Source: Brevibacillus laterosporus (GTDB lineage: Bacteria > Bacillota > Bacilli > Brevibacillales > Brevibacillaceae). Taken from it: DNA of 64,000 nucleotides. Location of the stretch: NCBI GenBank assembly GCA_007833815.1, contig CP033464.1, positions 802,501 to 866,500 of the forward strand, given 5' to 3'. Shown here in pieces: positions 38,183-59,172 of this stretch. The notes beneath the pieces are model-generated. The model made no database searches. It was given only the letters and a program-made list of their open reading frames with translations, and was not told where the DNA came from. Position 1 is the stretch's first letter; every line of letters begins with the position of its first letter. The position numbers and the translations under genes are program-made.

Positions 38183-40681
38183 CTATTTCGCTGGAACAGA
38201 CGGTTTAATCGGCTTAACATTTGGCTGTAGTAGCATGTAAATAGGTGTATTTTCAACCGAATCAGCTTGTCCTTTTTCCACAAATATCGGTGTGGTATCC
38301 TGCTCCTCACCAGTAACAGGCATCGTTTCTGTGGCAGGAAGCGTCGCTGGAATAGGAACCTGACTTTTGGAATAAAGCATTACACCTCCGACTGTTCCTA
38401 CGGTAAGCATTGCTAGCAAACCGACCACAGCCAAGCCTTTGTTCTGACGAAAGAACCTCGTCAAAGCATTAGACGACTCATTTTCTACCTCATGTAAAAT
38501 TTCTCTAAACTCAGGGTTGCGAATTGCGTACCAACGTTTTCGCCACTCTTTATCCCGTACCCTTTTAGCATTATCATGTAAAAGATACTGTTTCAATACT
38601 AGACGATAGGAAGGAACAAGTTTTCTGCCCACCAAGAACATCCTTTGTTTCAATAACCACTGAATAAACAGATAGGTAGTCTCGTCTCCCCCCTGTTGCT
38701 GCACATAAGTAAGCATGCCATCAAAATCAAAGGCCGTTTGTGAATTCTGGAAATCACCACGATAAAAAACAAGCGCTACCTTTGGGAAACTACCTTCGTC
38801 TAATGGACTGCCCAACATCTTTCGAATCAGTTTCTGCTGGATTTTGATGTCATCCTCGTTCCAATTCCGATAAAACTCTTCGGGCAAAGGAGTCCCTGGT
38901 TCTTTTGCTAGAGAGAAGATGTTCATGAGCAGCTCTAGCTTATATTCGCTCTGTGAATCTAGCTCTGAGAAAAAGCTTTGCGGTTTATGTTCAAACAAAG
39001 AGACAATCTTCCTAACATCCTCCTTGGACAGCGTGTCCAAAGAAATATGTTTTAGTAAGCATTTGTCTATCTCTTCTAAAATCCTATTTGTGTAGTTGTG
39101 ACCTACACGCCACTTACCCAAAATTTGATGAATTGACAGTGCTGCTTCTACTTTTTGTTTTTCTTCTCTAAATAAGCTCAGTAGTTTTTGCTCTGTACCG
39201 GTTATGAAAAAGTGGTTTTGCAAAGCTTGAGAAGCATGTACAGCCCAGAAATTAATTTCCTGCCCTACATCATCTAGCTTGTAGCAAACAGCTAAGCGTT
39301 CAGCCACATATTCCTCGAATAGAGGCTTCACGACCTTTTCGTAGCTAAAAATAGTACTCATCATAAACGTAAACAAATTATGATTACTTGAAAGCTGCTT
39401 GTATACATTTGCAACGTAATCTTTTTGTTGAGAATGTTTTCCCTTGAGCAAAATATCCATCAGGTACATAATGATCTCTTTACGTGAGCCTTGATTCACC
39501 ACAACGCTGTAAGCCTCGCTGATCAATGTAATAAGCTCGACGGTCGGGAGCTCCTTAGACGCAACAGCAGCCTTCTCAGCGCCAAATACAAGCCCAAACA
39601 ACCCATACAGTCTCTTTTTATTACTCAAGTGATCATTACGTAAATAATCTAAGAGTACCTGCCAAATCGCCGTTTTATTACGTTCATAAAAGTTCATCTT
39701 ACCTGTTTCTATCATAAACAGAGTGCATAATTCGTAATACGTGGTAGTGCTCAAGCCCTTGGCACGATCGTCACCCGAAAGTATTTCGTCTGCAAACTCG
39801 TAAAACGACGTGAGTACACTAGTCTCATTTAAATTATTCCACGCAAAGGTAAGATACTCGTGGTCACCTTGAATATCAACATGAAGAATGGATTTGTTTG
39901 CAAAATCAAACAGAAAATCTTTATTCATATGTCCGTTTCCAGACCTTATGCTGCCCTTTTCAACAAAAATAACATGGAGATACTTTTTACTCTCTGGTTC
40001 ATTTGTATAGGTAAGAAAACCAAATTGTCTACGCATCTCATAAGGCAAGCAACCATATAGAATCTCTAACAATTGAGTGGCAGCTCTAGAGGTGTCACTG
40101 ATATCAACATCTAAACTAATAAATACTTTTTTCTTTGCTGATAGAGAACTCATCGTTGCATATAACAGTTGTTTAAACGATTGCTCGTCAATCCCTAACC
40201 GAGCTAATATCTGCTTCTTATCTCCAGATAGGTTATTGTGATATGGCAAATCCTCTAATTCAGGAAGCTCTTTCCCATCTGTTTCTTGGTGATGACTAGT
40301 AAATGAATCTATGCCAAAAACCTTTGCTGGTGTTTTGCAAAATTCATCTCTTTGTACGCTCGGGATCACATAGTTGTGGGTAAAAAACGTATTTCGTTGC
40401 CCGGTAAAGTCTGCCCCTACATAAACGCTTTTTCCGATAACCATTTCGCCAGATTCCGCGCGAAAACAGAAAAGGGCTTCTGGATACTTATCTACCTGTG
40501 TTTCTCCTTTTTCCTGTAGCTCTTTAGGAGTATCGTAGACACAAAATGGGTGAAGCGTCTTCTTGATAAATGAATTGTCCAGAGCAGCAGATTTAGAGAC
40601 GGTGTCGTATCCTTCGTTTGAGCGGAAAATGCCTTGTCGCCCTCGCGTATAGTATTGCTGTTGAATATGCTGCCGTCCCAC
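38183..40681 (-). CDS. GAP1-like (GTPase-associated) protein with C-terminal membrane anchor
   Basis: An 832-aa protein. The N-terminal part (about 1-130; QQYYTRGRQGIFRSNEGYDTV, FTGQRNTFFTHNYVI) resembles the GAP1-N2 domain of GTPase-associated protein 1, as I recall it from comparative studies of NTP-dependent conflict systems. A long alpha-helical middle follows. One membrane helix (about 747-768, AVVGLLAMLTVGTVGGVMLY) leaves a T/P/E-rich tail of about 60 residues outside. Start is a GTG sharing one base with the stop codon of the GTPase gene, so the two are coupled, which fits a GTPase/partner pair. Last gene of the operon. No enzymatic motif seen. Confidence 0.72.
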   Translation of the reverse strand: MGRQHIQQQYYTRGRQGIFRSNEGYDTVSKSAALDNSFIKKTLHPFCVYDTPKELQEKGETQVDKYPEALFCFRAESGEMVIGKSVYVGADFTGQRNTFFTHNYVIPSVQRDEFCKTPAKVFGIDSFTSHHQETDGKELPELEDLPYHNNLSGDKKQILARLGIDEQSFKQLLYATMSSLSAKKKVFISLDVDISDTSRAATQLLEILYGCLPYEMRRQFGFLTYTNEPESKKYLHVIFVEKGSIRSGNGHMNKDFLFDFANKSILHVDIQGDHEYLTFAWNNLNETSVLTSFYEFADEILSGDDRAKGLSTTTYYELCTLFMIETGKMNFYERNKTAIWQVLLDYLRNDHLSNKKRLYGLFGLVFGAEKAAVASKELPTVELITLISEAYSVVVNQGSRKEIIMYLMDILLKGKHSQQKDYVANVYKQLSSNHNLFTFMMSTIFSYEKVVKPLFEEYVAERLAVCYKLDDVGQEINFWAVHASQALQNHFFITGTEQKLLSLFREEKQKVEAALSIHQILGKWRVGHNYTNRILEEIDKCLLKHISLDTLSKEDVRKIVSLFEHKPQSFFSELDSQSEYKLELLMNIFSLAKEPGTPLPEEFYRNWNEDDIKIQQKLIRKMLGSPLDEGSFPKVALVFYRGDFQNSQTAFDFDGMLTYVQQQGGDETTYLFIQWLLKQRMFLVGRKLVPSYRLVLKQYLLHDNAKRVRDKEWRKRWYAIRNPEFREILHEVENESSNALTRFFRQNKGLAVVGLLAMLTVGTVGGVMLYSKSQVPIPATLPATETMPVTGEEQDTTPIFVEKGQADSVENTPIYMLLQPNVKPIKPSVPAK

Positions 40682-41946
40682 TATTGCTCCCTCCCATCAA
40701 TATAATCTAATTGATGTAATAGCCAAACAAATGGTTCATCTACACGAACAGGCGTCACCACGCCAGTCACTTTTTGGTTGACCGGGTTACTTCCCAGCGC
40801 AGATACAGCAAAATAAGCTGTATTGGTAAAATAAACTTCGAGCGCATCCTTAAAAGGCCGATCTACTTTTTCAATGAAACGACGTATTTCTCCATTTATG
40901 TTTTCAAATTCCGTCGTGTTGAGGTGGTCTTCATGGACGTAATTTCTAAACACATTGCTGTTTGATTTGATATATTCACTATCATCTTCTTTTAGCATGT
41001 GGAGCATGTCGCTTTTCGTAAGTACAACAGCTGTCGGAATATTAGTCTTGCTGTGTTCCTCATATCCAATGAAGTTTTCAAACAGAGTAATGAGAACCTC
41101 ACGTGGTTCGTCATATCTAGCTGTAAACTCCCCTGGTTCATCTCCTACATTAAACATAATCTTGTCACGTATCGTCCTGATTTGTAGAGGATCAACAAGG
41201 AATAGGATGCCTGAGGAGTTTTTTACATGGGACGCATATAGTTCCAAGTATTCACGATCCACCATTCCCTCACCAGCAACGTCAAAAAACACAAGAATAA
41301 GCGGGGCCTGTTCACTATCTTTAAAAATAAATTGAAAAATGAATGGTTCCTGCCGCTTTTCCTTTTGAGTAGAATCAAGCAGTTGACCTCTCTCAAACAA
41401 TGGCGCCTCGTAATTTTCTCGGAACTTTCGACTAATCTGTGCGTTTAGTGGCATGCAAGCCGCGTTGAAATGATTGGCAGTCGTATTTTGTAGTGTATGA
41501 ATTAAGGATGTCATATAGACAGACTTACCTACCTGGGAAGCACCAACGATTGAAATAATATTACTTGGCGCCTTTCCAGCTGTGATTGGGAGTTCATTAT
41601 GGCATTTCGGGCAAAGCCTTCGCTTGGTAACCATGCCGTATCGATCTGTCAGCCCTACCAAAACCTGATCGACATAAAGTTGGTTCTCATGCGGTATCGT
41701 AGCTGGATCAATCACCGCTTCCAATTCCTCAATCGAATCCAATCCGAATTTATCTCGATACTGATTTAATATCTCATCCTCTTGCAACGCGTAATTTTCA
41801 TCATCATCACGATGATGTGTGGCTCTAAATACTACCTGTTCAGGAGAATACTTCGCAAAGCAATAAGGACATACAATATCGTAAAAAGGAAGTCGTTCCT
41901 TGGTTGTCTGTTTTTTATCAAACATATTTTTCAAAAATGTAAACAT
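40681..41946 (-). CDS. Zinc-ribbon TRAFAC-type GTPase (double-GTPase 2-like)
   Basis: A 421-aa cytoplasmic GTPase. Cysteines C26, C29, C112 and C115 (CPYC ... CPKC) form a split zinc ribbon. The G domain starts with the P-loop GASQVGKS (135-142); LVFFDVAGEGMV is the G3 region with the aspartate, VVLTKSDML is G4 (TKSD), FAVSALGS is G5. This looks like the DO-GTPase2 family, known mainly from association with GAP1 and vWA proteins. Its gene lies between the 211-aa gene and the GAP1-like gene. GTP hydrolysis is inferred from intact motifs. Confidence 0.82.
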   Translation of the reverse strand: MFTFLKNMFDKKQTTKERLPFYDIVCPYCFAKYSPEQVVFRATHHRDDDENYALQEDEILNQYRDKFGLDSIEELEAVIDPATIPHENQLYVDQVLVGLTDRYGMVTKRRLCPKCHNELPITAGKAPSNIISIVGASQVGKSVYMTSLIHTLQNTTANHFNAACMPLNAQISRKFRENYEAPLFERGQLLDSTQKEKRQEPFIFQFIFKDSEQAPLILVFFDVAGEGMVDREYLELYASHVKNSSGILFLVDPLQIRTIRDKIMFNVGDEPGEFTARYDEPREVLITLFENFIGYEEHSKTNIPTAVVLTKSDMLHMLKEDDSEYIKSNSNVFRNYVHEDHLNTTEFENINGEIRRFIEKVDRPFKDALEVYFTNTAYFAVSALGSNPVNQKVTGVVTPVRVDEPFVWLLHQLDYIDGREQ

Positions 41947-41958
41947 GTTGGTTCCCTC

Positions 41959-42594
41959 CTATTCAGGAATCAGTTCATAGCTCTGCCCATATTTTTTTCC
42001 GTCTGTAAAAAAGAGGCGAATATAATCTTTTTTCTTAATCTCTATTTCAGGCATTACATTATCTCCCGGCTCAAGATCACGGATAAAGGCATACTGAGTG
42101 CCATCATCCTTATTTGCTGGAGGGGAACCTTCCTTTTTCACATAACATAAAACATCTTTTGGAATGAGAATCTCCGAAAAAATGCGAATCTGTAGAGTTT
42201 GATACTGACTAAACCACTTTTTCCCTCTTTTAAAAGAATAGTAGATTTTGGCTTTACCAGAACTGACATGAATGATGTGATTCTCACCATCTGGCATTAA
42301 CAGAACAGGTCTACCATTTTGAAGCTGACACGGGAAAATTCGATACGTATATCTCCCATAACCATCTATATATTCCCGGTATCCCCTATGCGCCTTGTAC
42401 TCTTCACGAGTAAATAGCTTCATAAGCTTCTCATCGATTTGGTCAGGATCAAAAGGGGTATCAAATCGAGATTTGTATACATAGACGCAAGGAACCGATT
42501 CTGCCCAGTGCCAATTTATAACGCATTCGTTACCCTGCATGTGGGAGGTGACATCCCTAATCAATGTGTTGGATACTTCTTCCGTTTTACTCAT
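41959..42594 (-). CDS. Unrecognised 211-aa protein of the tubulin-like operon
   Basis: No family recognised. The sequence alternates short beta-like strands (VLLMPDGENHIIHVSSGKAKIYYSF, DYIRLFFTDG) with polar turns, has no membrane segment and no signal peptide, and ends with a strand-rich block. It is probably a cytoplasmic beta-sandwich adaptor. It sits between the membrane vWA gene (19 bp gap) and the GTPase gene (12 bp gap), so it is almost certainly a component of the same complex. An internal block HRGYREYIDGYGRYTYRIFP is rich in aromatic residues. Confidence 0.7.
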   Translation of the reverse strand: MSKTEEVSNTLIRDVTSHMQGNECVINWHWAESVPCVYVYKSRFDTPFDPDQIDEKLMKLFTREEYKAHRGYREYIDGYGRYTYRIFPCQLQNGRPVLLMPDGENHIIHVSSGKAKIYYSFKRGKKWFSQYQTLQIRIFSEILIPKDVLCYVKKEGSPPANKDDGTQYAFIRDLEPGDNVMPEIEIKKKDYIRLFFTDGKKYGQSYELIPE

Positions 42595-42613
42595 TACACA
42601 TCATGCTCCTACT

Positions 42614-43900
42614 CTACCTATCAAACTGATTATTGCTTATTTGTTTAGCATCCTTATTTTTTGCTGATAAATATCTGCCACCTGTAAAGCGACTTTTCTC
42701 AGAAGATAGACCTTGGTTAGGCATAGGGAAAAATATCGTAAACAAGGTCATAACAACAGCTAGCAACAAGTCAGCAACTAAGCGAACAACCATGTCTGGA
42801 TACATACCTGATGCAAATCCCTTCTCAAGCACCAATCCAGCGAGAAGACCCGACACAATTCCACCCAATGTGAAACTTTTAGCTATATATTTGTTGTCAA
42901 AGAATAGTCCTAATGCCAATCCTAATAATGCCCCAATCACAAGTAAGCTCACGATACGCAGTACAGCGTACATAAGGCTATCTTCAGTTGAACCTGTTCT
43001 CTCTTTTACAAGTTCACGATCTTGACGACTCATATCATAAATTTGTCCGAACACACCTGTTATCTGATCTGTATGTTGAACATCATAATAATTTCCACTG
43101 GTTTCTTCTGCAATGCGCTTTAATAGCTCGGTTCCATCTGCACTAACCGTACTCATACCGACTGTATGAACAATGATATGAGACTGTTTGAATGGTTGTA
43201 GAGACTTCTCTAGATTCACATCACTGTACCCATCTGACATGAGTACAACCGTATTATTACCGGATTGATTTGTCTCATCTTTTATATGGTTTAAAGCCGT
43301 TTGCAATGCCTCTTCTATATCAGTACCGCCAGAGGGGCCCTCGTGGCTAGTCAGTTTTTGGATAACGTTATCTCTGACCTTTTGATTGCTCAATTGCACT
43401 AAAGGCTGTAGCACGCTTGCTTGATGATTAAAGGTAATCACCGCCACCCTTGTATCGCTATCCATTCTACGAACCACGTCGGCTGCCGCTTTAAAAAGCT
43501 GACCATCCTTATCCGACTCCTGCATACTAGCCGAAATATCTAGCAGCATGACAATATTGTTGGTACCGGACGCTCTTTGAAAATTCGCCCCGTAAACAAA
43601 TTGTAAAAGCATAGCGACTACACCTAACATGATGAATGTACTTGGTACGAGCATCTTCCATGAGAAACCGACGTAGCGCTGTCTCCAGCCTTGACCATTT
43701 AATTGCGGTGAAATTAATTCAGCTATTAAACACATAAGTCCCACAAATAAAGCGTACTGTCCAAAATAAAGTCCCATGACTACCCACTGTGGAAGTTCAT
43801 TAGATAGTAGGTTTAAGATCATCTCGCCCACTACAAAGCCGATTACTCCACCAATCAAGCTACAGAAAACCATGAGTAGACTTATTTTTTTTTGACTCAT
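42614..43900 (-). CDS. Polytopic membrane protein with central vWA domain
   Basis: A 428-aa protein: three membrane helices (about 7-30, 38-62, 85-105), a von Willebrand A domain (about 115-300) and three further helices (about 315-405). The MIDAS metal site is complete: DISAS (121-125), the Thr in SGGTDIEEAL, and the Asp in VLMSDGYSD. vWA domains mediate metal-dependent protein contacts. The sides of the membrane are uncertain: with three preceding helices the domain could lie on either face. Its start overlaps the 782-aa gene by 4 nt (ATGA). The C-terminal tail is basic and polar. Confidence 0.83.
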   Translation of the reverse strand: MSQKKISLLMVFCSLIGGVIGFVVGEMILNLLSNELPQWVVMGLYFGQYALFVGLMCLIAELISPQLNGQGWRQRYVGFSWKMLVPSTFIMLGVVAMLLQFVYGANFQRASGTNNIVMLLDISASMQESDKDGQLFKAAADVVRRMDSDTRVAVITFNHQASVLQPLVQLSNQKVRDNVIQKLTSHEGPSGGTDIEEALQTALNHIKDETNQSGNNTVVLMSDGYSDVNLEKSLQPFKQSHIIVHTVGMSTVSADGTELLKRIAEETSGNYYDVQHTDQITGVFGQIYDMSRQDRELVKERTGSTEDSLMYAVLRIVSLLVIGALLGLALGLFFDNKYIAKSFTLGGIVSGLLAGLVLEKGFASGMYPDMVVRLVADLLLAVVMTLFTIFFPMPNQGLSSEKSRFTGGRYLSAKNKDAKQISNNQFDR

Positions 43901-46245
43901 GACGATTGCCCCTCTCCTTGCCGGTGAAATAAAAAGCCACTTTCCACATAGGATTCATAATATTTCCTATTGTTACGGTAATACATGAGATCTTCAATAC
44001 CGAACCCGCCCATGAGTTTGACTTTCTCAATCCCGCTTTTATTCTTTTCATGAATGCAACCCTGCTTGTAATCTTTACTCCCTTGCTCTGTGCGAAATAC
44101 ATATTGAACAAAATCATTGGTGAAATCGGCAAAAAAGTATTTTTCCTCATATCTATACTTTTGCATAAACTGAAACACTTCTATATGGACAGATGACCGA
44201 TTTTCCAATTCTAAGGCCAAATCTCTATATAGCTGCTCTCTCGTCAAAACGGCCCTGTTGTCATAGGCAACCGTCACATTCGCTCTTGCAAGAAGCTCTT
44301 CTTCAAAGGAAAGAGAAAACGGCGCACTGGTCAGAATCTCTGTTCGACACATGTCACATAGCCGCTGGATCATCTCAGTAACTCCTTTTTCTAATAGAAA
44401 GGAGATGCTCCCCATGTATTTATCTTCAAAGTAAAAACCGGAACCTCTTTTAGCTTCTACTATATCAATCGATTCCTGTACCACAGCTCCATAGTATTCT
44501 TCTATGTTTTTATCTAAATAGTCAACGGCCTCTCGTATGCTCCGTCGTGACATCTCACTTACTTGTACTTTTATTTCTTCTAGCTGCATGACCTGTTTCT
44601 CTATTTTCTGATGAATCTCTTCCAATTGCTTTTCATAGTATTTAAGAAGCTCTACTTCCATTTCCAATCCCAAAATCTCATACTTCTTCTCATAAATCAT
44701 CGGGAAAAGATAGCGCACAAAACTCCTCACACGCTCTTTATCTCGGGTAAATAGACCACCCGTTTTTATCTCTTGTCGATCAACCCTCTGACGATAGAGT
44801 TCCTCTAGCTGGTCTTTGCTGTACTCTAGCTGTCGAACTGTTTCTCTTATTCTGGAACGGAGTACGCCAACAAGGCTCTTCTCCGCGTCATTTCCCGAAG
44901 TTAATTGATAGGCAGCATATAATCCGTATTTTGGATTTTCAATGATTCTCTCTCTAATAAGCTGAGAGAACTTATCTTTTCCCTGAAAGGAATTTCGTTT
45001 GGAACGAGCATCAAGTAAAAAATTTGTTGCAAAAAAGGTCTGACTGCTATCTTCGAACAGTGCTACCTCTGCCTCCTTAAGAGTCATACTCGTAAGTTCT
45101 TTGTAGCTAACGCCCGAAGTCATCAGACCTGTCATTTCTTCCAGCTTACTTTCATCAGGCAAAACAGACTTCACTTTTCGTAGAATATACGAATCTGTGA
45201 TTTCAAGCCTCTCTAGTGCCTCTGTTACATCATAATTCCCTTTTCCCTTCAAACGCTCTAGAAAATGATCATATACTTTTGCAAGTACCGTTAGTGCAAT
45301 AGCGTGAGTGGGTCGTTTCACTTTAGAAAGTCCAGCGGAAGCATATGTAGGTCTTCCAGTAGCTCCAGTGATATTATGCATAAATTGTGTTCGATTATAG
45401 TTCTCGTTACCCTCATATATTTCTGGTTCAACCCGTTTGTTGTTGAGCAGGACTATGTCACTAATCAATTCATAATTATCTTCCCTACCGTTATCAATAA
45501 ACATTCCCTGCTCATTTTTATCGCTTAGGATATAAACAAGCGAATAGAGCGGAGAATGCTTGTGCTCCACACCTAATGTAACACGATCCTCTGTCATTTG
45601 AAGATCCGCACAGAATTGGTAATCAATCTGCTGGTATTCGTTTACCTCGTCAAGGAAGCTAACTCCTATCGACGTAGAAAATCCAAATTCATGACCATTG
45701 TTCTTTTCCTGGATTAGAACATACAAATCCAACGAAACATTTTTAAACAATTCAGCAAGATAGCTTTTTACAAGCAACGTAAATTCTGGTACAAGCACAT
45801 TAGCTATATCATCAGCTCTTGTGACAACCGCAATATTGATTTGTTGATGATAAGTGAACAGCTTGCCCATATCGGCTACGCGATCACTTATCATCTTCAT
45901 CATTTTATTTAATTCAATCAGTAAGGACTCGTCTTGATAAAACATTTCATGTAAAGAAGCCCGCATCGCTTTTTTATCCGCAGACGGTTGAGGCAATCGG
46001 CAGCTATACACATTGGGGCGATCTAAGGTTTCTTCCGCATAAGCGTGAACATAGAGTACCCCTTCGCTATTTTGCCACTTCTGTTCATTACTCGCATAAA
46101 TCGCTTGGAGTGCGTCTAAGCTCTTATCACCTAAAAAGAGAAAAAGCACAGGGTTCTGAATGCTACGCTGTCCGTTCTCACTATCCAGTTGTTTTTCTAA
46201 ATCAGAGACATAGTGAGTTGCGAACTGCTCTATCAAATCCCTCAT
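43897..46245 (-). CDS. Unrecognised 782-aa protein, possible degenerate tubulin-like partner
   Basis: Soluble, no signal peptide. The N-terminal part has strand-helix units reminiscent of a Rossmann or tubulin fold (NPVLFLFLGDKSLDALQAIY; INIAVVTRADDIANVLVPEF, VSLDLYVLIQEK) but neither a GGTGSG nor a P-loop motif. Residues about 470-600 are strongly charged and predicted coiled coil (RETVRQLEYSKDQLEELYRQ, KQLEEIHQKIEKQVMQLEEIK). I suggest, as inference only, that it is a nucleotide-free relative or polymer partner of the large tubulin-like protein encoded 20 bp upstream. It overlaps the membrane vWA gene. Confidence 0.7.
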   Translation of the reverse strand: MRDLIEQFATHYVSDLEKQLDSENGQRSIQNPVLFLFLGDKSLDALQAIYASNEQKWQNSEGVLYVHAYAEETLDRPNVYSCRLPQPSADKKAMRASLHEMFYQDESLLIELNKMMKMISDRVADMGKLFTYHQQINIAVVTRADDIANVLVPEFTLLVKSYLAELFKNVSLDLYVLIQEKNNGHEFGFSTSIGVSFLDEVNEYQQIDYQFCADLQMTEDRVTLGVEHKHSPLYSLVYILSDKNEQGMFIDNGREDNYELISDIVLLNNKRVEPEIYEGNENYNRTQFMHNITGATGRPTYASAGLSKVKRPTHAIALTVLAKVYDHFLERLKGKGNYDVTEALERLEITDSYILRKVKSVLPDESKLEEMTGLMTSGVSYKELTSMTLKEAEVALFEDSSQTFFATNFLLDARSKRNSFQGKDKFSQLIRERIIENPKYGLYAAYQLTSGNDAEKSLVGVLRSRIRETVRQLEYSKDQLEELYRQRVDRQEIKTGGLFTRDKERVRSFVRYLFPMIYEKKYEILGLEMEVELLKYYEKQLEEIHQKIEKQVMQLEEIKVQVSEMSRRSIREAVDYLDKNIEEYYGAVVQESIDIVEAKRGSGFYFEDKYMGSISFLLEKGVTEMIQRLCDMCRTEILTSAPFSLSFEEELLARANVTVAYDNRAVLTREQLYRDLALELENRSSVHIEVFQFMQKYRYEEKYFFADFTNDFVQYVFRTEQGSKDYKQGCIHEKNKSGIEKVKLMGGFGIEDLMYYRNNRKYYESYVESGFLFHRQGEGQSS

Positions 46246-46265
46246 GCTTTTCCCCTCCTAATTCA

Positions 46266-49200
46266 TTATTGTAATGTTTTGCGCATATCGTTCACTTTAG
46301 ACCACACTTTTTTATAAAAGCGATACATGTCTTCTCCATTTACAAAGTCATCCCGATCGTATTCAAGCTCATTCTTCGCTTCCTGAAAAGCGGTAGTGAT
46401 TTCATCTAGCTTTGTCATCAATTCCTGGGTATCAAGCGCAGATGTCATCTGATCGCTACGTTTGCTCGCTTTACGTTGAAGAGTAGTCATTTGTTTACCA
46501 TCCAGGTTTCGGTATTGATTATAGATGGCGTACTCAACATGCTTGTTCACCTTCAATAGATTGACGAATGGTTCCCAAGCCTCTTCTTCTTCGTCTTTGT
46601 CATACACATATAGCGCACCTTTTTTGCAAATGGTACTCGTGTATAAAGCTTCAATGAAACGGTTTATCAGCTCTTCCTCACCTTGAATGGACTGGATGAT
46701 CTGTTCTAGCTCAAGCATTTTGCTCTCAATGTCTTCATACTTCCGCACTTCTTGTTGCAACAAACGAATAAGTTCTGGAGAGCGAATTAAGTTTTCTTTT
46801 GCCATCTCTTCGTTAATGCTACCAAACAGATCCTTTGTATAATCCTGCTCCAATCCTTGCTCCATGAAGCCCTTCAGTTCAGTCAGACATCTCTTGATCT
46901 CTCCTGGGCTACCTTTAGATGGATCCTTGTCTAGCTGGTATTTGGACAAAAAGGAAGTAATTTCAAATGGCTTCGTAATGATGCAATCGTAACGGTTACT
47001 AGTTTTATTTTCGCTGTCTTTTTCGATAATGCATCCGTAACGAACGGCTCTGTCAAATAGGCTGCGAACTCTCGCATTGTACTCTTTTACACGATCATTG
47101 AGATACGTTTCTCCCCATGATTTCTCTGGAATAGGGGAAGGCAGGTACGCCCAGTTATTTTTTTCTGATTGTACGAGATGACGACCGATCCCCTCTTTTT
47201 CTAGAATGGTTCGCTCATAGCTTTCCTCGTACACTTTTAGCGGTGTATAAGCAAACAGAGGAACACCATTTTTCGTATTCAACCAGAAAATACGGTTTTT
47301 AACTCCACTCTCCTTAACAGTAAAGCGAGAGCCACTAATAGACGTGTTTTGATAGTTCTTGATTCCTTTTAAAATAGACGGAGCTTGCAATGGTACGGAA
47401 ACAAAACCCCACGAAGGGAAATCCATATTACCTAGATTATTACTAAGATGAAAGACTGGAATGGCTTCTTCATCCAATTTACTAGCAATTTTCCGTTCTA
47501 CGATACGATCTAGGGTTTCGTCTTGCCCGTATTTAATTAGCAAAAACTCTTCCATAGACTTTGTAATTAACTCGCTGAACTTATCAGATAAAAAGTCAGA
47601 AATGGAACTGACAATGTCTACTTCTGTTTCCTTGATCCAATTATCAGAGCGCTTCAACAATTCAGCAGTGAAATCACGAATCAAATCATCTGTATCCTTC
47701 TGATCAAGGGTTTCGCCTATAACCTTCGCAATATCAGGGACACCAACAATATTCCAGTAATAGGTTTTATTACCAGTTCTATCCATCTCTTCCCCGCCGT
47801 TAATCAGGATGTCACCATTCTTTTCAAAAATTTGTTTGAGTGTATTTAAAATCTCCGTAAACACACTGTAAATCCGATTATTTTCCTCATTTAATCGACG
47901 ATAAAGCTCCTCGTAAAACTCGATCATTTGCTCTAGCTTTTCATGATCGGCAAGTAGCTGATATTCGTTGATTTTTGCTTCTAAATAGCTATTTTTCTTT
48001 CTTTCTTTTGAAATGAACGCACTACGAGCATCACCTAGCTTCTCATTAGCTGTTTCACGTGCTCCCTCAATCTCTCTTGGGAAACCCTCTATATTCAATT
48101 TCAAGCTTTCAATATAAGACAGGATCATTTTAAGCAAGGAAAACCCCTTATCCGAATGGATCAAACGCGATGCGAAAAATGGCCCTTGTTGTGCGTGCAA
48201 AAATACCCTTGTAATCATTTCGCCAAATGTAGTGGTCAGCTCTCCAGGTAGCTGCTTCTTACACTTGATGTATTCCTCTCTCGCTTTAGCGAGATAGCCC
48301 TGCTCCAGCTCATGATCGATACTAACAAGTTGTTGGGTGATCACATTGCTATAGCTAAGACGTTCACTATTTTCGTAACCTGGAATAGGTTCAGGAACGC
48401 GCTCTTCAAACTTTTTGGAGATTGAATCGATATCGATGCTTAATTTGCGAGCAAATTTTTCTGCATCCTCCTGTGTAGGAGCAACGGTGAACATATTCTC
48501 CATTTTTTTAAACAAACGATACGCCAAATAAGTAGTCATCTCTTCAATCGGTAATACCGCAGAAGAAGCTCCAATTACGTTGTATTGATAGTTGGCCGCA
48601 TAAGCTTTTGGCATCTGATTAATGTTGGTGCGAATGTTACTAATATAATCGTGAATCGCAAACTCTTCGCCCGACCGTTTTTCTTCACTAGCCATGAAGT
48701 TGGTGATATTCTCTGCCGTAACATTCATGCAGTAATCATAGGCATTTTCTAATGATTTGCCTTCCAGATTGGTTGCAGAAATAAGATGGCACAGATTGAA
48801 GGGAGGCATCGGAGAGGACACGTTTAATACGTTGCCATATTGTTGTTTGAAGCGCTCCATACGTTCATCTGCATTCATCCAATAATCTAGCTCTTTTAAC
48901 GCTGCATACCCGTTTTTCATAATGTAATCGCGTGTATGCGAGCTGAGACTTTTATTAGCCAAGTTAACGTCTGGCGTAAATAGATAGCCAAGCGAATTAA
49001 CTTTATCTACTCCCGCACTGCCGAATTCTCTTTCCAAAATACCACGAACAATATAGGCAATATCCATGAAGCAACCACTACCGGTTCCACCCGAAATACC
49101 CGTTAAAATAAATACGATCAGCTTCTTGTTAGTGCCTTCCGTAAGCATTTTAATCTTTTTCTCGATGGTTTGAACAACCTGAGTAATCTTTGTGAATAGA

Positions 49201-49655
49201 AGTAAACGACCTGCCTGTCTCACCCCTGATGCTCCACTAATTCCATCTGTAATCGTCAGCTCAGGTGACAGCCAATCCGTAATATACGGTTCCAAAATGC
49301 TTCTGTTCTGCAATACTCCACCGATCTCCGGATTGGAAAGCAATACAAACTCAGAGATTGGATCAAGTCCAATACCCTTATAACGCTTGTTACGGTCATG
49401 CTCATTGGTTTCAAAGGCTACAAATTCAATATTATCCGGTTTTTCTTTCCGCTTTTTCGATAGAGCATCTACTGGTAATTTAAAGCGTCTGTTTACCTGA
49501 TATTTTAAACGGAGCAAAGCATCAATCCCTGTTCCACCTAAACCTATAACAAGCATAGGGTTATCGATGGTATCTACCCGAATCTTATCACTAACGATTC
49601 CCCCGCCTAATGATACATCCAACTGTTGAATATGTTCTCTTACTACTGCTTTCAT
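46266..49655 (-). CDS. Large tubulin/FtsZ-like GTPase (Tubulin_2 type)
   Basis: An 1129-aa protein. The N-terminal GTPase domain has the T1 loop VIGLGGTGIDALLRLK (36-51) and the tubulin signature GISGGTGSGCFMD (186-198). It thus belongs to the tubulin-like family (Tubulin_2, FtsZ-like group) found in scattered bacteria and archaea next to vWA proteins and a distinct GTPase, a system proposed to remodel membranes. It is three times longer than FtsZ; residues about 400-1129 are a unique, mostly helical extension with coiled-coil stretches (RETANEKLGDARSAFISKER, YEDIESKMLELEQIIQSIQG). No membrane segment; cytoplasmic. Core gene of the operon, 15 bp after the secreted vWA gene. Confidence 0.85.
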   Translation of the reverse strand: MKAVVREHIQQLDVSLGGGIVSDKIRVDTIDNPMLVIGLGGTGIDALLRLKYQVNRRFKLPVDALSKKRKEKPDNIEFVAFETNEHDRNKRYKGIGLDPISEFVLLSNPEIGGVLQNRSILEPYITDWLSPELTITDGISGASGVRQAGRLLLFTKITQVVQTIEKKIKMLTEGTNKKLIVFILTGISGGTGSGCFMDIAYIVRGILEREFGSAGVDKVNSLGYLFTPDVNLANKSLSSHTRDYIMKNGYAALKELDYWMNADERMERFKQQYGNVLNVSSPMPPFNLCHLISATNLEGKSLENAYDYCMNVTAENITNFMASEEKRSGEEFAIHDYISNIRTNINQMPKAYAANYQYNVIGASSAVLPIEEMTTYLAYRLFKKMENMFTVAPTQEDAEKFARKLSIDIDSISKKFEERVPEPIPGYENSERLSYSNVITQQLVSIDHELEQGYLAKAREEYIKCKKQLPGELTTTFGEMITRVFLHAQQGPFFASRLIHSDKGFSLLKMILSYIESLKLNIEGFPREIEGARETANEKLGDARSAFISKERKKNSYLEAKINEYQLLADHEKLEQMIEFYEELYRRLNEENNRIYSVFTEILNTLKQIFEKNGDILINGGEEMDRTGNKTYYWNIVGVPDIAKVIGETLDQKDTDDLIRDFTAELLKRSDNWIKETEVDIVSSISDFLSDKFSELITKSMEEFLLIKYGQDETLDRIVERKIASKLDEEAIPVFHLSNNLGNMDFPSWGFVSVPLQAPSILKGIKNYQNTSISGSRFTVKESGVKNRIFWLNTKNGVPLFAYTPLKVYEESYERTILEKEGIGRHLVQSEKNNWAYLPSPIPEKSWGETYLNDRVKEYNARVRSLFDRAVRYGCIIEKDSENKTSNRYDCIITKPFEITSFLSKYQLDKDPSKGSPGEIKRCLTELKGFMEQGLEQDYTKDLFGSINEEMAKENLIRSPELIRLLQQEVRKYEDIESKMLELEQIIQSIQGEEELINRFIEALYTSTICKKGALYVYDKDEEEEAWEPFVNLLKVNKHVEYAIYNQYRNLDGKQMTTLQRKASKRSDQMTSALDTQELMTKLDEITTAFQEAKNELEYDRDDFVNGEDMYRFYKKVWSKVNDMRKTLQ

Positions 49656-49670
49656 ATAATCGATCCTCTC

Positions 49671-51452
49671 CTAGACGATATAGTCTATAAAGACTGATTT
49701 GTTTACACCTGAAAGGGATACTTTGATCCGATCGTTCTTTTTTAATTCCCTTCCTTTACTTGCATCTAGCACTCTTCCAGCCTTTTCAATCTGACATTCA
49801 GATTTGTTCAAAATGATCAGCGTGTCATTTTTACCTGGTACAAAAATGATCTTGTCAGTCTCCTGAAACTCTGGGGCCAGCTGCAACAGTTGATGCAATT
49901 TGACCTTTCCTTTAAAAGTATTCAGTTTTTTATACTGCGGGCTTGATTTCTCGCCTGTATCCTCATTGTAAATTTCGATAGCCATCTGTCCCATAAATCC
50001 TTTGTTAGCCTTCTTCCAAATGGACAGTACGTAAAAAATGACAGCTAGAACTAAAATAAGACCAAGAGTCCCTGCAATTACTATTAACCACGGAAAAGGC
50101 TTTTCTTCCCCTGTCGGAGCTGTTGTCGGCTGTTGAGTACCCGTTGCCCCTGTATTTGTTGCATCAACAGTAACAGGCTGTGTTTCTCGATAGAAACTGC
50201 TATCCTCCGCTTTTACCTTAATCTCGTATTGATGGGAGGATGGGACAGCGAAGTTCCCAGTGAATCCGCTACCCGTATTGGTTAGTACGATTTCGCTTGT
50301 TTTTTTGTCTGTTAGGTCGTTAACAAGTAGTTTTGCTTTCATGCTTTTATAAAGATCGGTGCTGGTCATTTTTTGCCCGTTACTGACCAGTTCTGCTTTG
50401 ATTTGGATATCATCGCCGACTTTAAATGTTTTATTTGGTATCGGCTCCATCGAGAGCTGCAAATCATAATTAAAGATCATATTAATATCGATCTTGTCCT
50501 TAGCTACCCCTTTTACCTGCAATTTCCAATCCCCTTGTTGGGGCTTCAGCATTTTAATCATAGAATACGCACTAGATTTGGAAAAATGCACCTGATTAGA
50601 CGGGATCGTTACGGTTTTTCCAGATGGATCAAACAGCTTTACCTGAACCGAATTCGTTGACATAATGGATATATTTGCTTCCAGCACATTGGTATTAGGG
50701 ATCGAGATCGTTACATCCTGAAAAGCTCCATTAGCAGTAAGATTTTTGACAGGAACAACCTTTAGCTTCAAATGATTAGCAAAGATCTCACTTAAAATTT
50801 GTGGTAGCTTGTCAGCTGTACTTGTTTCAAAAAATTTACCATTCGTCTCTGTCGCAATCTGTTGCAGAGTCGTTCTGTTCAACTGCCCGTCTGCATTCAA
50901 TCCAATAGTGTATATCGGGTATCCTTTACTTTTTGCCACTTTCACAGCATCCTGCAATTTTTGATCAGACATCTGTTGCGTACGGTTGGAATCTTTATTT
51001 AAAAAATTATTTCCATCTGCTAGCAACACGACTATGGGTGAATGCGCAGGGTCATGTCCTGCATCAAGAATTTTGACTGCTTCTTCGACCCCCACGGAGA
51101 TATCTGTATAAGGACCTTTTTGTAAACTATCAATAAAAGATTTGATCTGTTGCTTGTCCTGATCTGTTTTAACTTCAATCAGTGCTTTTTCTCGCTCAAT
51201 TTTATCCGTGTAAGCGATGACCCCGATCTTATTCCCCTGTACAGAAGTCATATCTACAAACATTTTCATCGCTTCATTGCTTACTTTATTTTTATCACTT
51301 TGAGTCATGGAATTGCTGACGTCCACCACCAACACAGCGTCCATTTTGTCTCCACCAGTTTGTGCAAACCCAAACGTGGCACCTGTGGTTAGAGAAGCCA
51401 ACAGAAGTCCCACGCACAATATACACTGAAGCACTCTCTTACATTGAAGCAT
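49671..51452 (-). CDS. Secreted vWA protein with membrane anchor and cytoplasmic tail
   Basis: A 593-aa protein: signal peptide (1-30), extracytoplasmic vWA domain (about 36-225) with MIDAS DVSNS (44-48), the Thr in GPYTDISVG and the Asp in LLADGNN; two or three beta-sandwich modules (about 230-430); a T/Q/P-rich stalk (NTGATGTQQPTTAPTGEEKP), one membrane helix (about 452-478), and a cytoplasmic beta-rich domain of about 110 residues that looks FHA-like in size and strand pattern but lacks a recognised signature. First gene of the operon. It links the cell surface to the cytoplasmic tubulin-like/GTPase proteins, like a receptor. Confidence 0.84.
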   Translation of the reverse strand: MLQCKRVLQCILCVGLLLASLTTGATFGFAQTGGDKMDAVLVVDVSNSMTQSDKNKVSNEAMKMFVDMTSVQGNKIGVIAYTDKIEREKALIEVKTDQDKQQIKSFIDSLQKGPYTDISVGVEEAVKILDAGHDPAHSPIVVLLADGNNFLNKDSNRTQQMSDQKLQDAVKVAKSKGYPIYTIGLNADGQLNRTTLQQIATETNGKFFETSTADKLPQILSEIFANHLKLKVVPVKNLTANGAFQDVTISIPNTNVLEANISIMSTNSVQVKLFDPSGKTVTIPSNQVHFSKSSAYSMIKMLKPQQGDWKLQVKGVAKDKIDINMIFNYDLQLSMEPIPNKTFKVGDDIQIKAELVSNGQKMTSTDLYKSMKAKLLVNDLTDKKTSEIVLTNTGSGFTGNFAVPSSHQYEIKVKAEDSSFYRETQPVTVDATNTGATGTQQPTTAPTGEEKPFPWLIVIAGTLGLILVLAVIFYVLSIWKKANKGFMGQMAIEIYNEDTGEKSSPQYKKLNTFKGKVKLHQLLQLAPEFQETDKIIFVPGKNDTLIILNKSECQIEKAGRVLDASKGRELKKNDRIKVSLSGVNKSVFIDYIV

Positions 51453-51654
51453 GTTAGTGAACCTCCGCTATTTATTTTTTGTGAGAATTACCCATTTTTT
51501 GATCAACTATTGCAAAGAATGTGACTATATGACAAGATTACCACTATATTTTACAATAAAAAAGAGTAAAGGAATGTAAGATCCATATAACGTTATACGG
51601 AAACATGTACTAATATGTTACATATTTCGACATTGAATATTTGGAGAATGATAG
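51453..51654. promoter_or_regulatory. Divergent control region of the tubulin-like system
   Basis: Both operons start here. TATAACGTTATA (51586-51597) is a perfect 12-bp palindrome, and AACAT / ATGTT (51602-51606, 51615-51619) is an inverted repeat with an 8-nt spacer. Both lie 35-70 bp before the microprotein ATG and can be operator sites. AT-rich boxes around them allow several promoter readings; none is compelling. Confidence 0.45.
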
Positions 51655-51804
51655 ATGATAACTTATATCTTTTTCGCTGTTGCTTTGGTACTACTGGGCT
51701 ATCGTTTCACTCAACTGTGGCTATCTAAACGAAAAAGTAAGACAGAAGCGGAGATGGATCAGTATCTTCATGCCCTGTTAAACAATGAAGGTGAACAAAA
51801 ATGA
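51655..51804 (+). CDS. 49-aa membrane microprotein
   Basis: ATG at 51655 with GGAGAA 8 nt upstream; stop codon TGA (51802-51804) overlaps the next ATG by 4 nt. The product starts MITYIFFAVALVLLGYRF, a single membrane helix (about 2-22), then WLSKRKSKTEAEMDQYLHAL, a basic-to-acidic cytoplasmic tail of about 25 residues. Coupled translation with the 313-aa protein and a clean ribosome binding site make it very likely to be real. It is probably a subunit or regulator of the system, for example an anchor for a soluble component. Confidence 0.72.
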   Translation: MITYIFFAVALVLLGYRFTQLWLSKRKSKTEAEMDQYLHALLNNEGEQK

Positions 51805-52742
51805 AGACAAAAATTGGTGTTCAATTTAGAAAGACAGCCAAAACAACATACGCCTTTGAACGTTTGAAATATTGTCCAAAATGCCATTCATATTCTGTCT
51901 TATGGGATACCGAATGTCCATTTTGTGAAAAAACAGTAAAACTCCTACCTATCCGTGCTGTCTCTTCTGCCACTACAAGACGTAACGTTCAAATTCGCTT
52001 TCTTTGGATTGGTCTATTTGTCTGCCTCTCCGCTATCTTTGCCAATACGCCGATGAACCTTGCACTCGCCTGTGGAGGAGGAGTTGTCCTCTTTTCACTC
52101 TTTTGGCTTATGCAGAAGCGCTACGGCTCCTATGAAAAAAACGTTCACTTTCAGCAATTGATCCTAACAGAGCATGAGAATATTAAAAATGCTCTGTATA
52201 GACATCTTGAAGATATTGACTCAGATGTGAAGGCAAAAAGATACAAGGATGCCTATGAAAAAATCCGGGAAGTTGGCTACTTTATCGACTCCGATTTGGT
52301 AAAAATTCTCAAAGTTAAATATCTCAATCGTTTTGTTCTGCGCAAGGACATGGAGCTGGAGTTAGACACATTGATCCCTTCTGATTACAATCAGAATTTT
52401 ATTGAATATCTTCATGAGGTACTTAAAGTCCAACCTTGGCTAGTAAAACAAACAGTGCTAGATTATGTAATTCAACATAAGACATATATTCTTCAAAGTA
52501 ATAATGGCGTGCAAATACTTGGTCAAGTAGCCGGTGCCTCCCTTCGAGTGAGAGCTCATGTAGATCAGTATCAGGATTTTATCATTGAGTTCATAGCGTA
52601 TTTGCCTAAGGAACGTTTGGTTCGTTTAGCTAAAATGGTAAGCGCTCATCGAGACAGTCATTGGGAAAAATTATATGAAGCTACCAAGAAACAAGTGGAT
52701 CAACATTATTCGTTCGATCCAGAATTGAAAGGATTGCTATGA
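51801..52742 (+). CDS. Zinc-ribbon protein with membrane helices
   Basis: A 313-aa protein. The N-terminus has a zinc ribbon (CPKC at about 25-28 and CPFC at about 39-42), two membrane helices (about 65-85 and 88-106), and a cytoplasmic helical domain (about 110-313) without a known motif. The zinc ribbon resembles that of the GTPase in the opposite operon in spacing of its C-x-x-C pairs only. Starts in the stop codon of the microprotein and ends by overlapping the next gene by 4 nt, so all three are made together. Confidence 0.75.
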   Translation: MKTKIGVQFRKTAKTTYAFERLKYCPKCHSYSVLWDTECPFCEKTVKLLPIRAVSSATTRRNVQIRFLWIGLFVCLSAIFANTPMNLALACGGGVVLFSLFWLMQKRYGSYEKNVHFQQLILTEHENIKNALYRHLEDIDSDVKAKRYKDAYEKIREVGYFIDSDLVKILKVKYLNRFVLRKDMELELDTLIPSDYNQNFIEYLHEVLKVQPWLVKQTVLDYVIQHKTYILQSNNGVQILGQVAGASLRVRAHVDQYQDFIIEFIAYLPKERLVRLAKMVSAHRDSHWEKLYEATKKQVDQHYSFDPELKGLL

Positions 52743-54565
52743 AGGAATTTATTAGCAAGCTGGTCCCTGTCTATCAACGGTCAATTTGGATACGTAATAT
52801 CCTACTAGTCTTGTTCCTACTAGCTTTAGTAGCAGTAGGTGTAAAAATTAGATATAGCCTGAAAAAAATCGATTTATATGAACAAGCAAAAGCGTATTAC
52901 ACAGAAAAAAACTTACTAGCGGCGGAAGAGAGTTTTGCTAAGGCAGAAGCCATTACTACCATTGCTTACGGCGATGAAGTATGGAGCACGTCATTGTCAG
53001 CACTAACCTCAATCCGCCAAAAACTAGAATCCATCTCCCAGCAGGTTCATTTTGCTATGCGTGATAATGATGTAGAGGAGATGCTCGATTTATATACGAG
53101 CTATCACACGTTTAAGCAGCAATCCCTGCAAGAAGAGCAGGTATTAGCAAATTTTTTCACGCAGATTTCTGAAGGTCATACAATTGAAGCTACTTTAAAA
53201 ACATACTTCCTTTCTATCAAGGAAGCATATACCAAGTCTGTGCAAGCAAACCTTACAAAAAAAAAATATAGTGATGAAGGTTTTATTCATTCCCTTGTCG
53301 CTATTCCCGATGAATTTTTTGGTGGGAATAAACAGAAAAAGCAGGAGCTCATTACCTTATTTCGTTCCTATGATCAGAAGAAATTTAAAGACATAACAAA
53401 CAGAAGCACCTTTGAACAAGTAATTGAAGCAGCGGCCAAAAGTCTACGTGCCTACAAGCAAGTGGATATACAAGGCGATTGGTTAATCGCTCTACTCGAA
53501 AGGTACGCAAGCTCTGAGATCAAGCGGACCATCCGAAAAGATGACCTAGACACATTTATTACGCAGGCAAAGGCCTATCGTCAGATTAATGACGTGCTAA
53601 CTACTAGCTCTGAAACTATTGGCATCATTGACCGCCACCTCGCCTCTCAGATAAAACAAGCAGAACGATACACACAAGGAAATCAGTATAATAAGGCACG
53701 AGACCTGTATCAAAAGCTGAGCGCTCTTCAGGATACATCCCAGCTCGTGGCAGAATTAGAAGAGCACTGGACGAAACATGATCCAACTCGCTTACTGAAA
53801 GAGAAATATCCAGATAAATCGTTTGATTTGGTCGTGACTGGCGAAAAACGATGGGGCTCCAGGATTTATGTCGCAGGATTTTCAGAGGCAGATCGACATC
53901 TTCATTTGGCAGCAAAAATGCCGGATGATTATACTCCCCTCTTTTTAGAAGAATCATTTGAATCGGACATAAAACCAAAAAGCCTGAGCATTTCGGATAT
54001 ATTAACCGACAAAGAGGCTCCCATCATTATTGTAGAAGCAGAAGGTAAGGAACGCCGCTCTACTTATTATGGATTTGTTCCTGATCTATCAAAAAAAATA
54101 TGGGTGAAGAGGTTTGAAGTTGCGGCAGATGGATTTTCAGTGGAAGGTCCAGGTTCTGTGGTTCTTGAGAATGCAGAGGGTAGGGGAGAATATGAAATTG
54201 CTACTTTTAAGCTAGAAGATAAAGGCCTTGAATATGAAGAGAAAAAAGTAGACTATCTAACAGCAAATCCCGAAGTTGATCCTGAAGCAGAATTGGAAAC
54301 AAAACCATGGTCGGAAGCGGAGTCTGGATCAGAAAAACCATCCTCTTTACATAATGATGCAACATCAAATCCAAAAACAGACGTAGGAGCAGGTGGGTCT
54401 ACTACAGAATCCATCAATGTTTACGCTGGTCCTGGAGAAGAGTACGGTATTATTGGTCAAGTCAAAAAGAGCAATTCGATCGAGGGTGTGGCTGATCAAA
54501 ACGGTTGGTATCAAATCTCATTTAACGGTAATTCTGGCTGGATACGTCTTGATCAATTACCGTAA
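52739..54565 (+). CDS. Membrane-anchored helical protein with C-terminal SH3b domain
   Basis: A 608-aa protein. One N-terminal membrane helix (about 18-36), then a helical region with TPR-like units (EQAKAYYTEKNLLAAEESFAKAEA; QAERYTQGNQYNKARDLYQKL) up to about 350, a beta-rich region (about 355-490), an acidic P/E/S linker, and a bacterial SH3 domain (about 555-608; INVYAGPGEEYGIIGQV, NGWYQISFNGNSGWI). SH3b domains usually bind cell wall, so the bulk of the protein should be outside. It could be the wall-facing part of the system. Confidence 0.78.
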   Translation: MKEFISKLVPVYQRSIWIRNILLVLFLLALVAVGVKIRYSLKKIDLYEQAKAYYTEKNLLAAEESFAKAEAITTIAYGDEVWSTSLSALTSIRQKLESISQQVHFAMRDNDVEEMLDLYTSYHTFKQQSLQEEQVLANFFTQISEGHTIEATLKTYFLSIKEAYTKSVQANLTKKKYSDEGFIHSLVAIPDEFFGGNKQKKQELITLFRSYDQKKFKDITNRSTFEQVIEAAAKSLRAYKQVDIQGDWLIALLERYASSEIKRTIRKDDLDTFITQAKAYRQINDVLTTSSETIGIIDRHLASQIKQAERYTQGNQYNKARDLYQKLSALQDTSQLVAELEEHWTKHDPTRLLKEKYPDKSFDLVVTGEKRWGSRIYVAGFSEADRHLHLAAKMPDDYTPLFLEESFESDIKPKSLSISDILTDKEAPIIIVEAEGKERRSTYYGFVPDLSKKIWVKRFEVAADGFSVEGPGSVVLENAEGRGEYEIATFKLEDKGLEYEEKKVDYLTANPEVDPEAELETKPWSEAESGSEKPSSLHNDATSNPKTDVGAGGSTTESINVYAGPGEEYGIIGQVKKSNSIEGVADQNGWYQISFNGNSGWIRLDQLP

Positions 54566-54600
54566 AGGAATCCTGTAAAAAATGAGTCCTACAAATTAAA

Positions 54601-54633
54601 CAAGTTGGCGGAATCATGATTTCCGCCAACTTG
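54601..54633. terminator. Hairpin between the SH3b gene and the second chemoreceptor
   Basis: 13-bp perfect inverted repeat (CAAGTTGGCGGAA and complement) with a 7-nt loop. Only a weak T run follows on the minus strand; convergent genes on both sides make a bidirectional terminator likely. Confidence 0.7.
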
Positions 54634-54647
54634 TACAAGAAAAAGAG

Positions 54648-56369: not shown

Positions 56370-56577
56370 CGAGTCCTCCTTATAGGAAATTTTTCTAATT
56401 TATTATATAACGTGCCGAGATAAAACGATACTTAATTTAAAATATTTGATGAATTTTGTCGAAAGCACTAAAATAATGGCGATATTAATAAAAATTAACA
56501 AATGAAAGAACATGGTCAGTCGTGTTATTAATATGAAATCGAGACAGAATTTATCTGTATCTACTCAAGATAGTACA

Positions 56578-56596
56578 ACATCGCTATCAAGCTAAG
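56578..56596 (+). repeat. Short dispersed repeat, copy 2
   Basis: ACATCGCTATCAAGCTAAG matches 26286-26304 with one mismatch; the upstream AAGATAGTACA is also similar to AAGGGGTACCGCC of the first copy. ACATCTCAATCAAGCTATAG at 59900-59919 may be a third, worn copy. Confidence 0.45.
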
Positions 56597-56731
56597 AAAT
56601 TTGTATCCTTATAATCAAAAAACACTATTCTTTTTTAGAAATATACAGGAAGAATGACGTTTTATAATAGAATTGTATTCTACACAACAATAAATTAACG
56701 TTGATGTTTACAAATGTGCATATACATTTGA

Positions 56732-56759
56732 AGCCTAATAGCTTTTTTGCTACTAGGCC
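56732..56759. terminator. Terminator of the small membrane protein gene
   Basis: GCCTAATAGC pairs with GCTACTAGGC (one mismatch) around TTTTTT. Lies about 25 bp after the stop codon at 56786. Confidence 0.6.
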
Positions 56760-56785
56760 TAAATGATCACATATGTCAATTATGC

Positions 56786-57094
56786 TTACCGTTTACCCTT
56801 GTAACCTTTTATTAGTAAAAAATACCAAAAACCAATCTCAGCTAATGCAGTAATACCAAATATAGGCCAAATTTTCCCTGAGCAAAGCTCTCTATAGAAA
56901 AATTCAAGTTCATTGCCATATCCCCTTGCCAATGAATTCAAAAAGAAAACAACTGGAGCTAGTATGGTAAAAACAAGCGTAATGACAGAAAAAAGGATAT
57001 GCTTTTTCTTAATCATGCAAACAATTGTAAGTATGATAGTTACTAAAATGAATAGGTAGTAAAAAATCCAAAACCAGAGTGGCATTGTCCCCAT
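56786..57094 (-). CDS. Small membrane protein of unknown function
   Basis: 102 aa with three hydrophobic segments (about 5-27, 33-53 and 75-95) and a basic C-terminus (KGYKGKR). No family is recognised. The ribosome binding site is GGAAGGGAG about 8 nt upstream of the ATG. It is in the same direction as the following gene (100 bp away), without obvious functional link. Confidence 0.6.
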   Translation of the reverse strand: MGTMPLWFWIFYYLFILVTIILTIVCMIKKKHILFSVITLVFTILAPVVFFLNSLARGYGNELEFFYRELCSGKIWPIFGITALAEIGFWYFLLIKGYKGKR

Positions 57095-57192
57095 AAAAAT
57101 TTGCTCCCTTCCAGTATCTAAATAGTATGTATTTTAACTATTCTGGTAAATAATCTATGTTACACTCTTGATGGTTTTCTCGATAAGATCGT

Positions 57193-58239: not shown

Positions 58240-58295
58240 AAAAAGACTGTAAAGAACTGCTTATTCTTAGAAATGATAAAGCCAATACACTTTCG

Positions 58296-59056: not shown

Positions 59057-59081
59057 AAAAACACTCCTTTTTTTAAAATAT

Positions 59082-59103: not shown

Positions 59104-59172
59104 ATATTATATTTATAGTATAAGTTATGTTTAAAATCAACCATTTTTTTCTATAGGAGGTAATTATAGTTA

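Follow-up and report, generated by a model that had tools for sequence, protein, structure and literature searches.

A ten-gene cassette of tubulin-like, vWA and DO-GTPase proteins in Brevibacillus laterosporus as a candidate envelope-sensing system

Gene content of the cassette

We analyzed a 64,000-nt stretch of Brevibacillus laterosporus contig CP033464.1 (GCA_007833815.1; positions 802,501-866,500, forward strand), hereafter the window, in which ten open reading frames (ORFs) at window positions 38183-54565 form a cassette of tubulin-like, vWA, GTPase and membrane proteins. Seven genes lie on the minus strand, with junctions of 1-nt and 4-nt overlaps or 12-20 nt gaps, and three lie on the plus strand, with a 4-nt overlap at each junction. 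An earlier reading of this DNA (the original prediction) had described two divergent operons, and all ten ORFs were located on the strands and with the spacing that it gave. Its domain calls were likewise borne out by Pfam, which returned Tubulin_2, GAP1-N2 and GAP1-M, DO-GTPase and two vWA matches.

The 1129-amino-acid (aa) protein (46266-49655, minus strand) is a GTPase of the Tubulin_2/FtsZl1 type. The original prediction had been made to depend on its scoring against a tubulin-family model; the match to Tubulin_2 was strong (2.8e-78), with 264 bits against a cut-off of 27. It keeps both GTP loops, a T1-type GLGGTG (49527-49544, minus strand) and a T4 GGTGSG (49074-49091, minus strand), and the motifs GxGGTG and GGTGSG occur in 31/31 copies. 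Helices are predicted at residues 550-619 and 960-1005 in a structure model of poor quality (mean predicted local distance difference test score, pLDDT, 52). The 782-aa partner (43897-46245, minus strand) is probably a tubulin relative that lost both GTP loops. Its probable tubulin-type N-domain, which is followed by long helices, carries F-x-G-D in place of the T1 loop (46126-46137, minus strand; 30/31 copies) and TRADD in place of the GGTGSG (T4) loop (45808-45822, minus strand). No Pfam match over the cut-off was obtained for the window copies of this protein, the zinc-ribbon membrane protein or the microprotein.

The zinc-ribbon DO-GTPase (40681-41946, minus strand) matched DO-GTPase1 (1.9e-9) and DO-GTPase2 (4.2e-8). 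Its Walker A motif is GASQVGKS in 30 of 31 copies and GATSVGKS in the other, the two CxxC motifs of its N-terminal zinc ribbon are found in 31/31 copies, and DVAGE in the window sequence was taken as Walker B with its glutamate. The adjoining GAP1 gene (38183-40681, minus strand), which overlaps it by 1 nt, encodes GAP1-N2 (1.9e-49) and GAP1-M (2.4e-29) domains, a C-terminal hydrophobic segment at residues 750-768 and a short, highly variable tail that is predicted to lie outside. The 211-aa protein (41959-42594, minus strand) occurs in 31/31 loci compared and has no recognised domain: its window copy had no Pfam match at E<=1, and no fn3 match was found in 18 copies of it, nor at E<=1 in the nine long cassette proteins of the window.

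The two vWA proteins (Pfam VWA, 3.7e-22 and 3e-17) each retain the DxSxS of the metal-ion-dependent adhesion site (MIDAS) in 31/31 copies. The membrane vWA protein (42614-43900, minus strand) has three hydrophobic segments, a vWA domain with MIDAS at residues 115-284 and three further segments. The outer vWA protein (49671-51452, minus strand) starts with a signal segment, followed by a vWA domain (MIDAS DVSNS) and a beta region; a second hydrophobic segment (residues 457-475) then leads into ~115 aa of conserved tail, which hydropathy would place on the opposite side of the membrane. It had been described as secreted; the second segment and the conserved tail point instead to a membrane-spanning protein. 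Among seven complete outer vWA proteins, the beta region matched GBD_Hemicentin over the cut-off in one, and no YtkA match was obtained at E<=1.

The plus-strand operon encodes a 49-aa membrane microprotein (51655-51804; 31/31 loci compared), a zinc-ribbon membrane protein with two CxxC motifs, a hydrophobic hairpin and a conserved C-domain (51801-52742), and a single-pass protein with a helical/beta ectodomain and a C-terminal SH3b domain (52739-54565; Pfam SH3_3, 2.8e-10, and hydropathy). By the hydropathy scan, the microprotein, the SH3b protein and GAP1 (near its C-terminus) each have one segment, and the zinc-ribbon protein has its hairpin; no segment was seen in the tubulin, the GTPase, the 782-aa protein or the 211-aa protein as encoded in the window. 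The divergent intergenic region (51453-51654) contains two blocks that are conserved among 17 aligned Brevibacillus-type sequences, in which no known operator was recognised.

Co-inheritance of the two operons

The original prediction had placed the plus-strand genes in one system with the minus-strand set, which we examined by mapping their conservation across genomes. In a draw of 399 genomes from the class, full-length Tubulin_2 (counted after six weak partial matches were dropped), GAP1-N2 and the plus-strand zinc-ribbon protein were found in an identical set of 62 genomes. The zinc-ribbon gene lies 3.2-5.5 kb from the tubulin gene in 62/62, while GAP1 lies 8.2-11.8 kb away on the opposite side in 61/62 and on a different contig in the remaining one. 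In a survey of 40 genomes from the family, Tubulin_2 and the zinc-ribbon protein were each detected in 30, and these were the same 30 genomes.

Besides the window's own genome, 29 family genomes were positive; loci were fetched from 20 of these, and the ten genes have constant order and orientation in all 20, with a single frameshifted SH3b copy. The frameshift, in a genome of the same genus (L039:6300-8200, G003), could be a real change or a sequencing error. Outside the family, ten loci were fetched from 35 positives. Nine of the genes are present in 10/10, with one membrane-vWA ORF split, and the SH3b protein is present in seven and absent in three. The microprotein match was weak in G342 (E about 2e-3).

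A scan of named genomes with an alignment of the zinc-ribbon protein gave 131 confirmed relatives, of which the best 80 were examined. The tubulin gene was found beside 79 of these, the microprotein beside 77 and the SH3b protein beside 77, and in two loci (L167, L169) the SH3b protein is displaced by ~2.4 kb. The locus lacking the tubulin is a 7.8-kb contig of a clostridial metagenome-assembled genome (L179), where four genes stand in a row on one strand before the contig stops. They encode the microprotein, the zinc-ribbon protein, a single-pass protein related to the SH3b protein (E 5e-90 against its profile, without a Pfam SH3 match) and an outer-vWA protein. This arrangement differs, yet ties both arms together.

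Trees of the seven minus-strand and the three plus-strand proteins, built for 28 taxa with all ten genes, have 23 and 22 supported splits in total, of which 21 are common, and none conflict. Flanking genes are common within sub-groups and mostly different between them. The co-occurrence counts are not independent events, because they follow relatedness. Nothing contradicts joint inheritance of both operons, and given the identical presence set and the congruent trees, the ten genes almost certainly constitute one co-inherited system, to which the plus-strand genes belong as the original prediction had supposed.

Described relatives and tempo of divergence

A set comprising FtsZl1, a vWA protein and a GTPase was proposed as a membrane-remodelling system by Makarova and Koonin (2010; PMC2875224), and Brevibacillus brevis is named in their FtsZl1 alignment legend. 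The likeness extends to an N-terminal tubulin domain with vWA and GTPase neighbours, and the helices predicted here may correspond to the coiled coil and helical C-terminal part of FtsZl1. The wall binder is of the OmpA type in some of their genomes and of the SH3b type here, and a GTP-dead partner is not discussed in the passages of that paper that treat FtsZl1. Kaur et al. (2020, eLife; PMC7159879) described firmicute GAP1-N2 systems with tubulins, read them as conflict systems tied to a multicellular habit, and noted features of a near-membrane role in GAP1-N2 systems, some of which have wall-binding domains. As outlined in their account, this firmicute type covers six of the seven minus-strand genes here. 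Both have a DO-GTPase with GAP1-N2, a GAP1 with a C-terminal extension, a membrane setting, two tubulin-type proteins (with coiled coil in their account; here the second is the 782-aa protein, whose tubulin-type N-domain is probable) and two vWA proteins, one of them multi-pass with its vWA domain predicted by hydropathy to lie outside. The zinc-ribbon hairpin protein, the microprotein, the 211-aa protein and a second tubulin without GTP loops do not feature in their outline of the type. Further differences from that description are that SH3 is fused to the GTPase there and forms a separate SH3b protein here; that GAP1-N2-linked GTPases usually have two ribbons, of which one is seen here; and that YtkA is fused to one vWA protein, with an FNIII-repeat protein in GAP1-N2 systems generally, neither of which was matched here by Pfam. 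Membership of the plus-strand genes, the probable loss of both GTP loops in the 782-aa partner and the FtsZ-like tempo of the tubulin are additions to the core described earlier.

Other reports touch single components. In Synechocystis, Sll0445-0447 (PMC9880817) likewise include a Tubulin_2 protein for which a mutant shows a phenotype, but the partners described are FtsA-like and DivIC-like, in contrast to the vWA, DO-GTPase and GAP1 proteins here. Tubulin_2 proteins were set apart as divergent in a 2023 FtsZ/tubulin survey (PMC9871819), and a 2024 study of the phage shock protein (PSP) response (PMC11237479) notes that some pspFABC operons include a DO-GTPase with a predicted part in membrane stress. 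Our search of phage records with the tubulin gave no match, and that of plasmid records gave three, all from Thermaceae and with coverage of at most 32%. These plasmids (L201, L202, L203) share the row vWA - distant Tubulin_2 - ~680-aa hypothetical protein - brxL. A RecQ helicase, a 3'-5' exonuclease or both are encoded close by, and in L201 an insertion sequence element precedes brxL. The vWA and Tubulin_2 genes are adjacent, as in the cassette, but there is no annotated GAP1, DO-GTPase or plus-strand gene within the 17-kb stretches, and profile comparison gave no support for the ~680-aa protein as a counterpart of the 782-aa partner. The Thermaceae row is a possible defence-linked relative.

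Within three close relatives, the ratio of nonsynonymous to synonymous substitution rates (dN/dS) was 0.02-0.21 for the nine long genes, 0.14-0.34 for the 49-codon gene and 0.02-0.26 for eight neighbours, so that all ten genes are under purifying selection in these comparisons. Across 17 genomes, identity to the copy of the window's genome was 74-96% for FtsZ and 67-95% for the tubulin, the latter being at most 4 points higher and at most 11 points lower than FtsZ, with a rank correlation of 0.93. Mean pairwise identity was 88-92% in the tubulin domain and 82% in the GTPase; in the outer-vWA protein it was 72% for the vWA domain, 70% for the tail and 61% for the outer beta region; and it fell to 17% in the GAP1 outer tail and 12% in the SH3b linker. 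The inner core is therefore rigid, while several other parts drift. Taken together, these data fit an inherited cellular function more readily than an arms race.

Proposed function and rival explanations

We propose that the cassette encodes a chromosomal, vertically inherited, envelope-spanning sensor of envelope state that controls a membrane-linked tubulin scaffold, a reading to which we assign a probability of about 0.5. Both vWA proteins and the SH3b protein would be turned towards the wall, where they would sense or bind something, and the signal could cross the membrane via the zinc-ribbon hairpin protein, the microprotein and the tail of the outer vWA protein. The DO-GTPase would be the switch, together with GAP1 as its membrane-anchored partner, and would govern where and when the active tubulin assembles locally; the GTP-dead tubulin may serve this tubulin as hetero-partner, cap or nucleator. 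The probable task of the system would be to sense the state of the envelope or surface and to build a membrane-linked scaffold there, in envelope stress or remodelling. It is presumably not cell division, because the genome has an ordinary FtsZ, and absence from most class genomes means that it is not general housekeeping. The transenvelope machine of the original prediction survives in part: a two-sided, membrane-linked arrangement fits the hydropathy, but some relatives do without the SH3b arm.

Several observations weigh against this proposal. The cassette is absent in 337/399 class genomes and 10/40 family genomes, and the SH3b protein has been lost in some relatives. GAP1, the zinc-ribbon protein, the microprotein and the SH3b protein have only 20-31% identity to the window copy in the Paenibacillus-side genomes compared, a fast drift that an anti-phage conflict system would likewise predict; together with the uneven presence (62/399) and the brxL context in Thermaceae, it keeps defence alive as an explanation. 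All topology is predicted from one kind of evidence, the hydropathy scan. The structure model of the tubulin, with its mean pLDDT of 52, is too poor to show polymer contacts or a catalytic T7 loop, and T6-H7 could not be confidently identified in the FtsZl1 family according to the section on that family in Makarova and Koonin (2010; PMC2875224). We found no experiment on such a system in the open-licence literature, preprints excluded, where the sole related mutant study that we found concerned Synechocystis sll0445.

In a conflict system as envisaged by Kaur et al., GAP1 and the DO-GTPase would sense an invader and trigger tubulin assembly as effector or cell killer. Their discussion of the firmicute GAP1-N2 tubulin systems places these among conflict systems (PMC7159879), and uneven presence (62/399 in the class, 30/40 in the family), fast drift of several membrane and outer parts, and the vWA-tubulin pair with a hypothetical gene beside brxL in 3/3 Thermaceae plasmids could all be explained in this way. 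We nevertheless regard this explanation, the main rival, as possible but doubtful, since the ten genes include no recognised effector enzyme, a PADLOC search gave no match below E 0.01, and phage records are without a match while the three plasmid records reach at most 32% tubulin coverage. Gene set and order are fixed, the tubulin keeps a tempo close to that of FtsZ, and purifying selection acts on every gene in the three close comparisons. No hypervariable effector and no mobile or defence-island context was seen for the cassette, although its outer parts do vary fast and a distant Thermaceae branch lies by brxL.

It is distinctly unlikely that the cassette is a platform for positioning or powering a surface structure in motility, adhesion or secretion. 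The Synechocystis neighbours (FtsA-like, DivIC), as reported for that locus (PMC9880817), form another set; none of the cassette genes was recognised as a pilus or flagellar gene; and the adjoining methyl-accepting chemotaxis protein (MCP) gene has a close relative (85-87%) at the locus in only three of 20 family genomes (G003, G004, G005), with distant MCP-like matches at 21-27% in two more. That the plus-strand genes are unrelated neighbours we consider very improbable. They do lie on the opposite strand, and the SH3b gene is missing in 3/10 loci outside the family, undetected in three of the best 80 named loci and displaced in two by ~2.4 kb; against this stand the identical presence set, fixed distance and congruent trees, and the clostridial contig, which has plus-strand-type genes and the outer vWA in one row.

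Within the envelope-sensing proposal, a more speculative and rather improbable extension is that the active tubulin and a tubulin made GTP-dead by lineage-wide loss of both loops form an obligate hetero-assembly which, linked across the membrane to integrin-like vWA domains and a wall-binding arm, would be a Gram-positive counterpart of focal adhesions. If true, binding outside would set a GTPase switch, which in turn would build or dissolve the cytoskeletal scaffold within the cell. Tubulins of the FtsZl1 type have been a prediction since 2010, and the literature searched assigned them no settled function. A nine-to-ten-gene unit with a probable GTP-dead tubulin partner is now defined in culturable Brevibacillus and Paenibacillus, and membrane adaptors accompany the system in every surveyed genome where they were sought. 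It may have been overlooked so far because, in a control search, Tubulin_2 matched three of 14 well-known genomes, and Bacillus subtilis, one of the controls, was not among the three.

Other features of the window and genome were also recorded. A perfect 14-bp palindrome with a terminator-like appearance (54600-54634) lies where the SH3b gene and the MCP gene converge; its stem is the longest of 13 sites in a scan of the region, for which 11.7 sites are expected by chance. At 24476-26149 (plus strand) lies a gene for a GHL10 glycosyl-hydrolase-like protein that also has a copper amine oxidase N-type domain; in G020, G021 and G022, relatives come straight after the SH3b gene. Another tubulin-family gene of the genome, a TubZ (TubZ-like_C 8e-53, Tubulin 5.6e-17; G000:C2:12541-12840), lies on a 60,496-bp contig (L002) and is probably a plasmid partition gene. 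Adjoining the cassette, 56000-60000 is low in guanine-cytosine content (about 0.30-0.33) and contains a C92-type peptidase gene (58337-59056). At 60655-62746, an extracytoplasmic function (ECF)-type sigma factor gene overlaps a DUF4179/DUF5643 gene, with dN/dS of about 0.2-0.26, above most neighbours.

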